Of a DNA stretch of 64,000 nt, positions 1 through 58,654 are shown piece after piece. The notes beneath the pieces were generated by a model, which searched no databases, was not told where the DNA came from, and was given only the letters and a program-made list of their open reading frames with translations. A program made the position numbers and the translations under genes. This DNA is from Phytoactinopolyspora limicola (GTDB taxonomy: Bacteria > Actinomycetota > Actinomycetes > Jiangellales > Jiangellaceae): contig NZ_JAAOEN010000001.1 of assembly GCF_011320225.1 (NCBI RefSeq), forward strand, positions 1,035,652 to 1,099,651. Direction: 5' to 3'. The stretch's first letter is position 1. The number at the start of each line of letters is the position of its first letter.

Positions 1-947
1 ATGTCGCCGTCGCCCCATGGCGACCACTGGCTGCGAGAAGAGTCCGAGCCGAGACACATCCGGACACCAGTGGCATGCAGCGTCAGGACGTCCGGGACGG
101 GCAGGAGGCCGTGTACGCCGACAGCCACCGCGACCCCGGCCTCTGCGAGCACTTCACCGGCCCGCCGGGTGGCGTCGGCGTCGAGGTAGGCGAGGCTGAA
201 GACGTCGCACAGGGTGACCCGGCCCTGCATGCCGAATGCGATGGTGCGCTGAGCGATCTGTTTCATCAGCCACAGCCCGAGTTCGCCGTCTTCGTGCATG
301 TGGAAGTCGACCGTGGCCTGGTATTTGCCGGCGAGACCGAAGACGATGTCCAGTACTCGGCCAGCGTCACCGTCGACGCCGGCCGGGTCCAGCCCACCGA
401 TGCCGTCGGCTCCGGCCTGAAGAGCCTGTTCGAGCAGATCTTCGTTGCCGGGGCGGCGTAGTAACCCAAGCTGAGGAAAGGCGACGATCTGGATGTCGGC
501 GGCATCCGCGAGTTCTTCCCTGGCTGCCATAGTGCCGTGCAGGCCGTCCAGTCCGATCGCGGGGTCGACGTCGGCAAAGGTGCGGATGAAGGTCGAGCCG
601 TTCGCCACACATTGGCGCATGAAGGCACCTGCTCTGATGGCCACGGGCGTGGTGATCTCCTCCCATTGCCGGAGCGTGTCCTCGAACATCTGATTCATCG
701 ATACCTCGACCGAGTCACGACGAGACCACGGCTCTCCCCACAGGCTCTTGTCGGCGTGGCAGTGCCCGTCGATGAAGCTGGGTAGCACGATCTGGCCGCC
801 GACGTCGATCGTCTGGCCGTTGTCGACGCCGGGGTGGGCGTTGTTGTCGCTGTCGACCACGGCGTGGATGCGACCGTCGGCGATGTGGAGGTCGTGGCGA
901 CTTTCGCTGCCGTTCGGCCGGCAGTTGAGCAAGGTGACGTTCGTCAT
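1..947 (-). CDS. Cytosine-deaminase-like amidohydrolase (3' end outside window)
   Basis: The frame opens at the ATG at 945-947 and stays open to base 1, so the C-terminus is missing. The metal-dependent hydrolase signature is visible: LPSFIDGHCHADKSLW puts an HxH pair at residues 62 and 64, VDFHMHEDGE follows near residue 215, and LGSDSSRSQWSPWGD near the edge matches the GSDxxRDPWxPxG block of cytosine deaminases and isocytosine or triazine deaminases. The next gene upstream is an ABC permease ending about 46 bases away, so it is probably the last gene of the transporter operon and acts on the imported base or its derivative in the cytosol. Oddity: the usual V-S-H-x-F metal-ligand block reads VTLCDVF here, with Asp where His is expected. 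The amidohydrolase call is firm; the substrate is inferred. Confidence 0.82.
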   Translation of the reverse strand, partial: MTNVTLLNCRPNGSESRHDLHIADGRIHAVVDSDNNAHPGVDNGQTIDVGGQIVLPSFIDGHCHADKSLWGEPWSRRDSVEVSMNQMFEDTLRQWEEITTPVAIRAGAFMRQCVANGSTFIRTFADVDPAIGLDGLHGTMAAREELADAADIQIVAFPQLGLLRRPGNEDLLEQALQAGADGIGGLDPAGVDGDAGRVLDIVFGLAGKYQATVDFHMHEDGELGLWLMKQIAQRTIAFGMQGRVTLCDVFSLAYLDADATRRAGEVLAEAGVAVAVGVHGLLPVPDVLTLHATGVRMCLGSDSSRSQWSPWGDGD

Positions 948-56153: not shown

Positions 56154-56298
56154 GATGGCGGTGTCCAGACGCCGACCGGCTACGTTCTCGTCGTCGCTCG
56201 ATGAACCCCACATCGACCTCCTCCTCCGCCTTGCCGGACGACGACGGGACACCGCCCGCATCCGCAAGATCCGTCAGACAGGCCCTAGTCTGCTTGCT

Positions 56299-56931
56299 GT
56301 GAGCGTGCAGGAAGAGCCAACGAGAGACGAACTGGCGACGGGGGTGGGTCCGTGGGAAGGCCCATGGCCCGAGGACCCCCGTTACGACCCGGAACTCCTC
56401 GCGCATGGTGACCGGCGCAACGTGGTTGATCGGTACCGGTACTGGAGCCGCGAGGCGATCGTCGAAGATCTCGATCGCCGTCGGCACTCGTTCCACATCG
56501 CCATCGAGAACTGGCAGCACGACTTCAACATCGGCTCGGTGGTTCGTACCGCGAACGCGTTCCTGGCCGCTGAGGTGCACATCGTTGGACGTCGACGGTG
56601 GAACCGGCGAGGCGCTATGGTCACTGACCGCTACCAACACGTCCGGCACCACGTGGACCTCGCGGCAATGGCGGAATGGGCACGGCAGCGGGAGCTTCCG
56701 GTGATCGGCGTGGACAATCTGCCGGGAGCGGTGCCGCTAGAGACCTTCGATCTGCCGCGTGCCTGCGTACTGCTGTTCGGACAGGAAGGGCCCGGTCTGT
56801 CCGACGCGGCGCGGGAACACGTCGACGTGTGCCTGTCCATCGCGCAGTTCGGTTCGACCCGGTCGATCAACGCCGGCGCAGCTGCGGCGATCGCCATGCA
56901 TGCGTGGATCCGTCAGCACGCCACCCCCTGA
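56299..56931 (+). CDS. TrmH/SpoU-family RNA 2'-O-methyltransferase
   Basis: 210 residues from GTG 56299. No Shine-Dalgarno, but TAGTCT six bases upstream suggests a leaderless message; longer frames are not supported. SPOUT signature 1 NWQHDFNIGSVVRTANAFLA, signature 2 CVLLFGQEGPGLSDAAREHV, and signature 3 FGSTRSINAGAAAAIAMHAW, which forms the knotted SAM site. Methylates a ribose in rRNA or tRNA; the exact target is not predictable. The last three codons and the stop (ATP-stop) lie inside the left arm of the inverted-repeat element. Confidence 0.88.
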   Translation: MSVQEEPTRDELATGVGPWEGPWPEDPRYDPELLAHGDRRNVVDRYRYWSREAIVEDLDRRRHSFHIAIENWQHDFNIGSVVRTANAFLAAEVHIVGRRRWNRRGAMVTDRYQHVRHHVDLAAMAEWARQRELPVIGVDNLPGAVPLETFDLPRACVLLFGQEGPGLSDAAREHVDVCLSIAQFGSTRSINAGAAAAIAMHAWIRQHATP

Positions 56932-57611
56932 TGTGCACCTGATCTTCGAAATGTCACCTGATCCACTCCGTTGAAGCGATCAGATGACGACCGCCCCGCA
57001 ACGACGCCCACCAACTCCACCGCACTGCATCTGATCACGTCTCACCTCGTGGACGTTAAACGATCAGATGCATAATCCGGTTCTCGTCGTCGAGTTGTGC
57101 ATCTGATCACCTGGCATCCGCATGCTGCGGCGACAAGACCGGATGCACAAACGGGCGCGCGACGGTGCGTTCGGGCATCCGACCGTGGTCAAGGGCTGCG
57201 CGCCTTGGCGGGCAAGAGCGCTGCCCTATTTTGCGGTGGCCACGCCAGAACACGCTTGCACACCTCCACAAACTAGGCATATCGGGCCCGCCAGTGGGGC
57301 GCTGGCGTGCCATGCCTGAAGCGCATCTGCCGCGCCTGTACACCGGAAGCCGGTGTATGGGCAAACGGAAACCGCGTCCATGTGCCGTGACAGTGTCGAC
57401 GCGCGAAGGTAAACACCAGTGGATCAGATGCGCTAACCGCCACGTGGTGTCGCCGAGTGCATCTGATCGATCTCCGTTCACATGCCGAGACGCGATCAGA
57501 TGCAGCACGGTGGGGTTGATGGGCGTCGTTGCGGGGCGGTCGTCATCTGATCGCGCCTACGGGGTGGATCAGGTGACATTTCGAAGATCAGGTGCACATC
57601 AGGGGGTGGCG
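56919..57611. repeat. 693-bp non-coding inverted-repeat element with 12 GATCAGATG-type motifs
   Basis: The first about 190 bases and the last about 190 bases are mirror images without a single insertion or deletion. The outer about 48 bases are identical, the next 70 are about 85% alike, and further in only the short motifs remain. GATCAGATG or its complement occurs at 56978, 57028, 57062, 57100, 57422, 57460, 57494 and 57544; the variant CACCTGATC/GATCAGGTG occurs at 56936, 56955, 57567 and 57586. Every motif has a partner equidistant from the centre (57265). Neighbouring motifs face each other in pairs. The core (57109-57421) is not symmetric and holds no convincing gene. It overlaps the ends of both flanking genes. 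Could be a MITE-like element, a structured RNA or a multi-site DNA-protein assembly. Confidence 0.9.
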
Positions 57612-58654
57612 GGGTCGGTCTGGGTGACCTTGGACAGGCCACGCGGAGCGTCGGGATTCAGCCCCAGCCGCCGAGCAAGGCTCTCGACGATCAGCTGCGC
57701 CGGGACGATGAGCGCCAACGGTGCCACCAACTCCGGCAGCGACGGCCCGGGCACAGCCACGTCCACCGCGCCGGCGAAGGAGGTGTCGCCGCCGATGCCG
57801 ACCGTGGCCGCGGCGCCGCGCCGGCGTAGATCGTGGGCGAGCTCGGTCATGCCGCCGACCATCGGGCCGTCGGCAGCGGATACCAGGAGGGCGACGTGGT
57901 CGGCGTCGACGACGGCGATCGGGCCGTGTCTGAGATCGGCGTAGGAAAGCCCACGGACCGGACGCAGGCAGGTCTCCTCCAGCTTCAACGCCGCCTCCAG
58001 GGCGGTGCCGAAGGCGATGCCACGGCCGCTGACGAGTGCTTCGGCGGTCGACGCCAGGCGCTCGGCGGCCTCGTCGACGCCGGCTCGGGCGGAGATCAGC
58101 CGCTCGGCCTCGGCGGGCACGCGGTCGAGATCGGCGTCGAGGGCGTCCGGTCGGGACGCTAACGCGCCCGCCAACACCGCCATGGCGGCCAGCTGTGCGG
58201 TGTACGACTTGGTGGCCGGGACCGCCTTTTCGGCGCCGGCCTGGGTGACGAGTGCGACGTCGGCGGCACCGGCCAGCGAGCTGGTGCCGTCGTTGGTGAC
58301 CGCCACCGTCCGGGCGCCGCGCGCGGCGGCCCATGCCTGGGTCTCGACGATCTCCTCGGTTTCGCCGGACTGCGAGACGGAGACGACTAGGGCTTCGGAG
58401 AGGTCGAGGTCGGCATGATAGTGGGTGGCGACGCTGGGGGCTGCTAGGCCGCTGGCCCGACCGGCGTGAACCTCGAGGAGGTAACGGCCGTAGATGGCGG
58501 CGTTGTCCGACGATCCACGGGCGACGAAGAGTACGACGCGACGATCGGCGGCCAACTGCTTCAGCGTCGGGCGCTGCGGGCGCAACGACTCCAGCGTACG
58601 GGCGAGCGCCGCCGGCTGCTCGGCGATCTCGCGAGCCATGGTCGTTTCGGTCAC
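57599..58654 (-). CDS. SIS-domain aminosugar isomerase/deaminase (GlmS/NagB-II-like)
   Basis: 351 residues from GTG 58652-58654, with GAGGAGAAC upstream. Two SIS domains: FVARGSSDNAAIYGRYLLEV, VVSVSQSGETEEIVETQAWA and TAVTN-like VAVTNDGTSSLAGAADVALV in the first; LVSGRGIAFGTALEAALKLE, ETCLRPVRGLSYADLRHGPI in the second, with the GlmS-type ELKHGP block as DLRHGP. There is no glutaminase domain, which fits the NagB-II/AgaS type that converts glucosamine-6-phosphate to fructose-6-phosphate. Divergent from a GntR/DasR-like regulator; together with the GH20 at 43.3 kb it points to aminosugar use. Its last codons lie in the right arm of the inverted-repeat element. Confidence 0.88.
   Translation of the reverse strand: MTETTMAREIAEQPAALARTLESLRPQRPTLKQLAADRRVVLFVARGSSDNAAIYGRYLLEVHAGRASGLAAPSVATHYHADLDLSEALVVSVSQSGETEEIVETQAWAAARGARTVAVTNDGTSSLAGAADVALVTQAGAEKAVPATKSYTAQLAAMAVLAGALASRPDALDADLDRVPAEAERLISARAGVDEAAERLASTAEALVSGRGIAFGTALEAALKLEETCLRPVRGLSYADLRHGPIAVVDADHVALLVSAADGPMVGGMTELAHDLRRRGAAATVGIGGDTSFAGAVDVAVPGPSLPELVAPLALIVPAQLIVESLARRLGLNPDAPRGLSKVTQTDPATP

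Follow-up and report, generated by a model that had tools for sequence, protein, structure and literature searches.

The window, a stretch of 64,000 nucleotides from Phytoactinopolyspora limicola, carries a mirror-symmetric element at 56919–57611, between a gene for a TrmH/SpoU-type methyltransferase and a convergent SIS-domain gene. The element consists of two inverted arms around a central spacer (Table 1). Between 56936 and 57594 lie 12 GATCAG[A/G]TG sites, eight of which are exact copies of GATCAGATG and four exact copies of GATCAGGTG. All exact copies of the two sequences in the window fall inside the element, and at up to one mismatch the window contains 28 matches, against 14.7 expected. 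A DNA-uptake sequence was set aside, given that within the window the exact motif copies are all inside the element. Both flanking genes end inside the arms, where their stop codons (56929–56931 and 57599–57601) also mirror each other.

The initial annotation had described inverted arms free of indels, motifs in exact mirror register, and bases that diverge toward the centre while the motifs are kept, and our analysis bore out each of these observations. In all six mirror pairs, the start of the left site and the end of the right site add up to 114530, so that the pairs share one midpoint and the register of the motifs is therefore exact. The two arms match each other without gaps over 154 nt, at 88% identity. 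Over the first 190 nt of each arm, the motif bases are identical in 54 of 54 columns and the remaining columns in 100 of 136; at arm positions 109–190, the corresponding values are 27/27 for the motifs and 26/54 for the spacers. The two halves of the element cease to be related about 200 nt inward of the outer ends.

Table 1. Positions, in the window, of the mirror element's parts and of the genes on either side
Feature	Position	Strand	Remark
TrmH/SpoU-type methyltransferase gene	56155..56931	+	start codon inferred; name read from sequence; stop codon within left arm
Left arm	56919..57108	+	outer end 56919; six motif sites; overlaps 3' end of trmH-like gene
Site m1 (GATCAGGTG)	56936..56944	-	motif search
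Site m2 (GATCAGGTG)	56955..56963	-	motif search
Site m3 (GATCAGATG)	56978..56986	+	motif search
Site m4 (GATCAGATG)	57028..57036	-	long arm class (m3 to m4, 50 bp)
Site m5 (GATCAGATG)	57062..57070	+	motif search
Site m6 (GATCAGATG)	57100..57108	-	inner pair with m5, 29 bases between
Central spacer	57109..57421	.	without mirror symmetry; no nuclease remnant found
Right arm	57422..57611	-	inverted copy of left arm; overlaps 3' end of SIS-domain gene
Mirror of m6	57422..57430	+	motif search
Mirror of m5	57460..57468	-	motif search
Mirror of m4	57494..57502	+	motif search
Mirror of m3	57544..57552	-	motif search
Mirror of m2	57567..57575	+	motif search
Mirror of m1	57586..57594	+	motif search
SIS-domain gene, convergent	57599..58654	-	name read from sequence; stop codon within right arm

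A family of directional arms at the 3' ends of genes

The mirror element has 120 matches in the genome that holds the window, a draft assembly of 6.59 Mb in 40 contigs. It belongs to a repeat family, here called type A, in which the repeated unit is one directional arm, about 175 bp long and carrying six GATCAG[A/G]TG sites. The search for further copies proposed in the initial annotation revealed a multicopy family: the outer direct pair of sites, CACCTGATC-N10-C[A/G]CCTGATC, has 98 forward and 98 reverse matches when two mismatches are allowed (2 and 3 for the reversed-pattern control), and GATCAGATG-N29-CATCTGATC, the inner pair, has 134 (none for its control). Ninety-nine arms pass the six-site pattern, in the window and at loci L009–L046 and L108–L147, with a few outlier offsets and missing sites among them. 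Their outer sites lie at offsets 0(-), 19(-) and 42(+), and their inner sites at 81–82 or 91–93(-), 113–116 or 125–127(+), and 151–155 or 163–166(-). Arm length most commonly changes by about 10 bp, close to one turn of the helix, and the length class is usually equal in both arms of an element, L041 being an exception. The sites share GATCAG[A/G]TG and a weaker extension resembling CNNNAACGG, and the length of the central spacer varies among copies of the family.

The motifs are also conserved in relatives. The six-site arm, 163 or 173 bp long, recurs at loci of Phytoactinopolyspora alkaliphila and Haloactinopolyspora alba, where the 40- and 50-bp classes are both present. This geometry, common to 99 arms of one genome and to two other species, supports the suggestion of the initial annotation that motif and spacing are under selection, and it is old. 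Among 40 genomes screened, at least one outer pair was found in eight, and the pair is frequent only in P. limicola, P. alkaliphila, G011 and G014. Some H. alba arms (L076, L085, L089, L098 and L105) carry three outer sites, not two, in 19-bp steps. Outside type A, tandem copies of GATCAGGTG at exact 19-bp steps were seen in a Myxococcales MAG (L082; seven copies), in Burkholderia (L078) and in Kitasatospora (L090).

By the strict pattern, P. limicola has 42 arm pairs and 36 unpaired arms, some of the latter reflecting a partner missed by the pattern or a contig end. The similarity between the two arms of one element is 0.74, against 0.62 to other arms, and only 22 of 72 arms are nearest to their own partner. 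The unit of the family is the single directional arm, and the mirror element is two such arms facing each other.

The arms sit at gene ends. The gene on the outer side of an arm has its 3' end there in 99 of 121 cases in P. limicola, 46 of 55 in P. alkaliphila and 25 of 32 in H. alba; 81 of the 99 P. limicola arms lie within 60 nt of the stop codon, and in 12 arms of this genome the predicted stop is a TGA within site m1 or m2. Arms facing a predicted 5' end number 22, 9 and 7 in the three species, and since the genes were called by a simple and crude codon-usage caller, some of these may be calling errors. The 76 P. limicola clusters lie between 38 convergent, 28 tandem, 3 divergent and 7 undetermined gene pairs. 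Since the arms usually lie where genes end, two convergent genes will typically bring a pair of them face to face, and this explains the mirror look of the array as two directional arms, usually one per gene end.

Comparisons within and between genomes show movement and turnover. Two P. limicola elements on different contigs, L015 and L018, have 585 of 600 columns in common, with unrelated sequence on their flanks. At the trmH–SIS locus, four other genomes of the genus (G001–G004) have just a short spacer without type-A sites, which in G002 is a stop-to-stop palindrome from another family. Downstream of trmH in G009 (L159), several GATCGTCGTGTGGG-like repeats and an inverted pair of GTGAAGATCGTCGTG were observed, perhaps another repeat family. 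Seven of the 46 arm-bearing genes of P. alkaliphila have P. limicola orthologs (>80% identity) that also carry an arm, against about 0.7 expected by a rough estimate; some arm positions are therefore old or preferred.

The two genes beside one P. alkaliphila element (L196) have their orthologs beside two separate P. limicola elements, L021 and L022, and the arm-side genes of an H. alba element (L100) resemble sdhB on one side and a UvrD/PcrA helicase on the other; an arm can therefore stay with its gene while the other side rearranges. Between P. limicola and P. alkaliphila, only one side aligns for L021, L022 and L034, and both sides for L122 and L036. We read the comparison of L021, L022, L196 and L100 as an exchange of contents, or an inversion, between arms. 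The element by the sdhB-like gene encloses a nuclease-like gene in H. alba (L100) and other DNA in P. alkaliphila (L196). Target-site duplications, proposed in the initial annotation as a test of mobility, were not found in the 42 elements: with the element ends placed approximately, 40 have none and two have 4 nt, where 37.4 would be expected to have none.

A nuclease-like gene and the palindromes around its homologs

The initial annotation had noted the absence of a transposase, which is true of the window; elsewhere in the same genome, a nuclease-like gene lies between two type-A arms. At L021 (contig C7), two inverted arms bracket a gene for a 310-aa protein. A tblastn search of the extracted loci with the L021 and L100 proteins (E ≤ 1e-6) gave one homolog each in P. 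limicola (L021), P. alkaliphila (L205) and H. alba (L100), each of them between two inverted type-A arms. Over the search match, the G011 gene (L241) is identical to the H. alba one. The G014 homolog is also between type-A arms but interrupted, in two pieces with one in-frame TGA. This interrupted gene (L248/L264; C1:4789399–4790143) stands in a genome that keeps 17 forward and 18 reverse outer-pair sites. An arm was found on one side of the gene only in G010 and in G013, where the gene is at a contig end. No remnant of the nuclease gene core was found in the other paired elements, which are therefore not simple deletion derivatives of the cassette.

The 310-aa protein has a putative AbiEi-type winged helix at its N-terminus and a putative DUF559/PD-(D/E)XK nuclease-like domain at its C-terminus. 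Among ten homologs scanned, an N-terminal AbiEi_4 match was above the cut-off in L270, L277 and L282, below it in four others and absent from L238, L255 and L257; DUF559 was listed at the C-terminus of seven at E ≤ 0.1, above the cut-off in L255 only, and similarity to REase_MTES_1575 was also listed. The type-A protein L238 had no Pfam match, and NCBIfam gave nothing useful. The alignment profile matched 3hrl, an 'endonuclease-like protein', over the C-terminus (4.9e-5) and two Abi proteins over the N-terminus (0.057 and 0.072). A match to a '65 kDa virulence protein' (0.026) is probably due to chance, and there is a weak similarity to the mobile intron protein 3r3p (E 0.91). All 42 aligned homologs have G202, E208, D239, E250 and R268 (L238 numbering) without exception; eight of the 50 homolog loci (L246, L248, L250, L256, L258, L259, L260 and L264) were left out of this alignment. 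The acidic residues among these five, E208, D239 and E250, may be read as the active site of a PD-(D/E)XK nuclease.

Homologs are present in 20 of 23 genomes, with up to 10 per genome, and most of them are bracketed by a palindrome of their own. When the 500 nt before each gene were locally aligned with the 500 nt after it, both flanks shared a palindrome (score of at least 30 on both strands) at 36 of 50 homolog loci and at 1 of 250 control genes; with a score of at least 34 on either strand, the counts were 42/50 and 2/250. These 50 loci represent 49 genes, L248 and L264 being the same gene, and the homologs are mutually related. A first flank test had given 7/30 against 0/469 controls. Since the ends of the genes frequently extend into the palindrome, the flank windows were moved to the end of the homology in a second test, which gave 14/30 against 2/656. 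The palindrome differs by clade (CCCATGATCATTGGC.., CCCATGATCATGTTCCC.., CTACCGACAT.. and CGTCCTGCAGG.. are examples). Fourteen of the 50 loci fail the stricter flank test; a convincing flank repeat was not seen in L240, L242, L254, L267, L271, L272, L274 and L284 (in two of these eight the flanks are cut), among others, and palindromes are entirely lacking in the sub-group L271/L272. In P. limicola, the sub-group L271, L272 and L273 lacks flanking palindromes and keeps the invariant acidic residues, and L273 has a long direct repeat.

A class-wide draw recovered a homolog (1e-15 or better) in 34 of 79 genomes. After three of 25 loci had been dropped for cut flanks, 14 of the 22 usable loci scored at least 34, as did 5 of 176 flank pairs that were mismatched as a control; counted on both strands, the figures were 8 of 22 and 0 of 176. 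L292 is the same gene as L253 and is therefore not independent in this draw. Protein identity correlates with palindrome similarity over 47 loci (Spearman 0.374; highest of 2000 permutations 0.177), a set from which L264, L304 and every locus with a score under 40 were dropped and which includes the one redundant pair, L253 and L292. Shared descent contributes to this correlation. At L304 (G075), a homolog lies between inverted arms of 330–390 bp (about 1040–1350 and 2630–2880) with internal 15-bp tandem repeats, possibly a second array-type arm, or else an assembly effect.

Shorter hairpins are dispersed as well. TGATCAT-N22-50-ATGATCA has 214 matches in P. limicola, 163 in G005, 161 in G002, 153 in G001, 140 in G003, 135 in G010, 130 in G014, 74 in G011 and fewer elsewhere, a few of which do not look palindromic; at least one match occurs in 19 of 23 genomes, and the control has none in all 23. 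In 707,825 bases of the P. limicola genome chosen for type-A arms, there are 20 such matches: 12 of the TTGGC kind, which brackets the L269 gene, seven of the TGAACA kind, which brackets the L270 gene, and one other. Four of the 12 TTGGC copies are identical in all 50 bases to one flanking copy of L269. L269 and L270 are two further nuclease-like genes of P. limicola bracketed by dispersed 50-bp hairpins; together with L021, the genome therefore has three dispersed repeat families, each bracketing such a gene.

The GATCATGAA hairpins occur in P. limicola with a spacer of 30, among its TGATCAT-type matches. A mutual exclusion of type A and the GATCATGAA family between genomes was considered and rejected, as the pattern behind it had a fixed spacer of 29 and the flexible spacer gives the 214 P. 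limicola matches. In G002, 29 distinct GATCATGAA hairpins have compensating changes at some column pairs, not all; one pair is C-G in 18, G-C in 6 and T-A in 2 of the 29. The G002 hairpins are perfect stems, often near stop codons, and divergent genes flank 4 of their 31 clusters.

A proposed partnership and its alternatives

The association between gene and repeat is well supported. In our view, the mirror element of the window is probably a gene-free copy of the type-A family, whose arms the cognate nuclease-like protein would spread, in a partnership similar to that of REPINs and RAYTs and built on an unrelated enzyme. The winged helix would most likely bind the cognate motif array; the AbiEi antitoxin of AbiE, a type IV toxin-antitoxin system, binds inverted repeats in its own promoter, according to PMC7319586. 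The nuclease domain may nick or cut at the arms, and copying or repair could then carry arms or whole elements to the 3' ends of genes, where insertion would be tolerated. This process might amount to transposition, to homing with subsequent gene conversion, or to a function at gene ends that has been domesticated.

Among the candidates listed in the initial annotation, a miniature mobile element and a phased array for a protein both fit, while a structured RNA found no support: the spacers of type A lack consistent covariation in P. limicola, P. alkaliphila and H. alba, where the few column pairs with z >2 are matched by others below -2, and no Rfam match was found around the mirror element.

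A different explanation is that the arms serve the host at gene 3' ends, as bidirectional terminators, insulators or nucleoid-protein sites, the winged-helix protein being a regulator or a bystander. Such elements would suit the placement of the arms (99 of 121 at 3' ends, 81 of these within 60 nt of the stop codon), and the conserved motif bases among diverged spacers, the seven arm-bearing genes common to P. limicola and P. alkaliphila and the perfect G002 stems near stop codons would suit them too. However, the four other genomes of the genus manage with a short spacer at the window locus, near-identical elements occur at unrelated sites, and the sequence of the palindrome changes clade by clade along with one gene family, all of which makes a host-serving element unlikely. 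It is also conceivable, though quite improbable, that the palindromes spread by other means, or are themselves host elements, and that a homing nuclease-like gene inserts into them and so becomes bracketed. The position of the gene between two repeat copies, the weak profile similarity to 3r3p and the elements without a gene remnant agree with homing, but the protein–palindrome correlation and the presence within one genome of three repeat families, each around its own bracketed gene, would demand a different spreader for every family. We consider it very improbable that this is an ordinary MITE family, with the arms as terminal inverted repeats of a classical DDE transposon and the nuclease-like gene as a passenger: the long inverted arms with several sites each, the many copies and the other DNA enclosed by some elements are in keeping with it, but target-site duplications are absent (40 of 42 elements with none, two with 4 nt, 37.4 expected with none) and no transposase was noticed between the arms, the family searched being Y1. 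We know of no DDE transposase for type-A elements.

Returning to a cognate protein that would spread its own repeats, we lean, somewhat more cautiously, toward a general form of this reading. Actinomycetes would have a class of gene-plus-palindrome units whose AbiEi-winged-helix/DUF559-like nuclease would recognise its own palindrome or array, sit between two copies of it and disperse it to at least 100 gene 3' ends, as a second, independently evolved version of the REPIN/RAYT lifestyle in which motif and protein co-diverge. Our findings point to a kind of gene-plus-repeat partnership, in actinobacteria, that had not been recognised before. If this is true, the palindrome-plus-enzyme way of life would have evolved more than once, here with an unrelated nuclease superfamily, AbiEi/DUF559-like genes of unknown function would acquire a role, and many natural pairs of protein and DNA motif would become available for recognition studies.

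Relation to known repeat and nuclease systems

Like MITEs, the type-A elements are short, gene-free inverted-repeat elements in many copies; they differ from MITEs in the lack of a target-site duplication and in their placement at 3' ends. Homing endonucleases are known from introns or from between phage genes, whereas the gene described here is bracketed by palindromes dispersed in the host genome. The protein resembles Vsr-like/EDxHD homing endonucleases and DUF559 proteins in its suggested nuclease superfamily (DUF559, REase_MTES_1575, 3hrl), and PMC12907096 describes a Vsr-like DUF559 protein, of the PD-(D/E)XK superfamily, with a link to a DNA-damage response in Caulobacter. With AbiE, the system would have the putative AbiEi-type N-terminal domain in common, whereas the C-terminus resembles DUF559 and the palindromes lie on both sides of the gene and genome-wide. 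Among the open-access literature matches listed, we found no link of DUF559 or AbiEi-type genes to dispersed palindromes.

REPINs with RAYTs are the standard example of dispersed bacterial palindromes with one cognate enzyme. According to passages of PMC3116915 and PMC3733652, REPs and REPINs are dispersed palindromes found mostly downstream of genes, between convergent or unidirectional genes, and a REPtron is a single cognate gene flanked by its own repeats; the searched passages of PMC3733652 report CGTC-type REPs without a dedicated transposase and do not mention actinobacteria. The likeness lies in the dispersed repeats and in the cognate gene flanked by them, here observed at L021, L269, L270 and the homolog loci. 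The enzyme, in contrast, would combine an AbiEi-type winged helix with a DUF559-like domain and is not a Y1/HUH tyrosine transposase. A RAYT/REP system proper was rejected, the Y1 transposase PF01797 being found in 0 of 23 genomes by a search that was positive in 5 of 14 control genomes. The repeats differ too: a type-A arm is a six-site array of 163–173 bp and not a stem-loop of 20–40 bp. REPs carry an unpaired GTAG or CGTC tag, and the TGATCAT hairpins are 50-bp palindromes. In TIRtrons, described in PMC3733652, a RAYT-type gene likewise lies between long terminal inverted repeats, which form a repeated family in their own right, but their enzyme is a tyrosine transposase, to which the present one is unrelated. 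The system described here would work like a REPtron but is not one.
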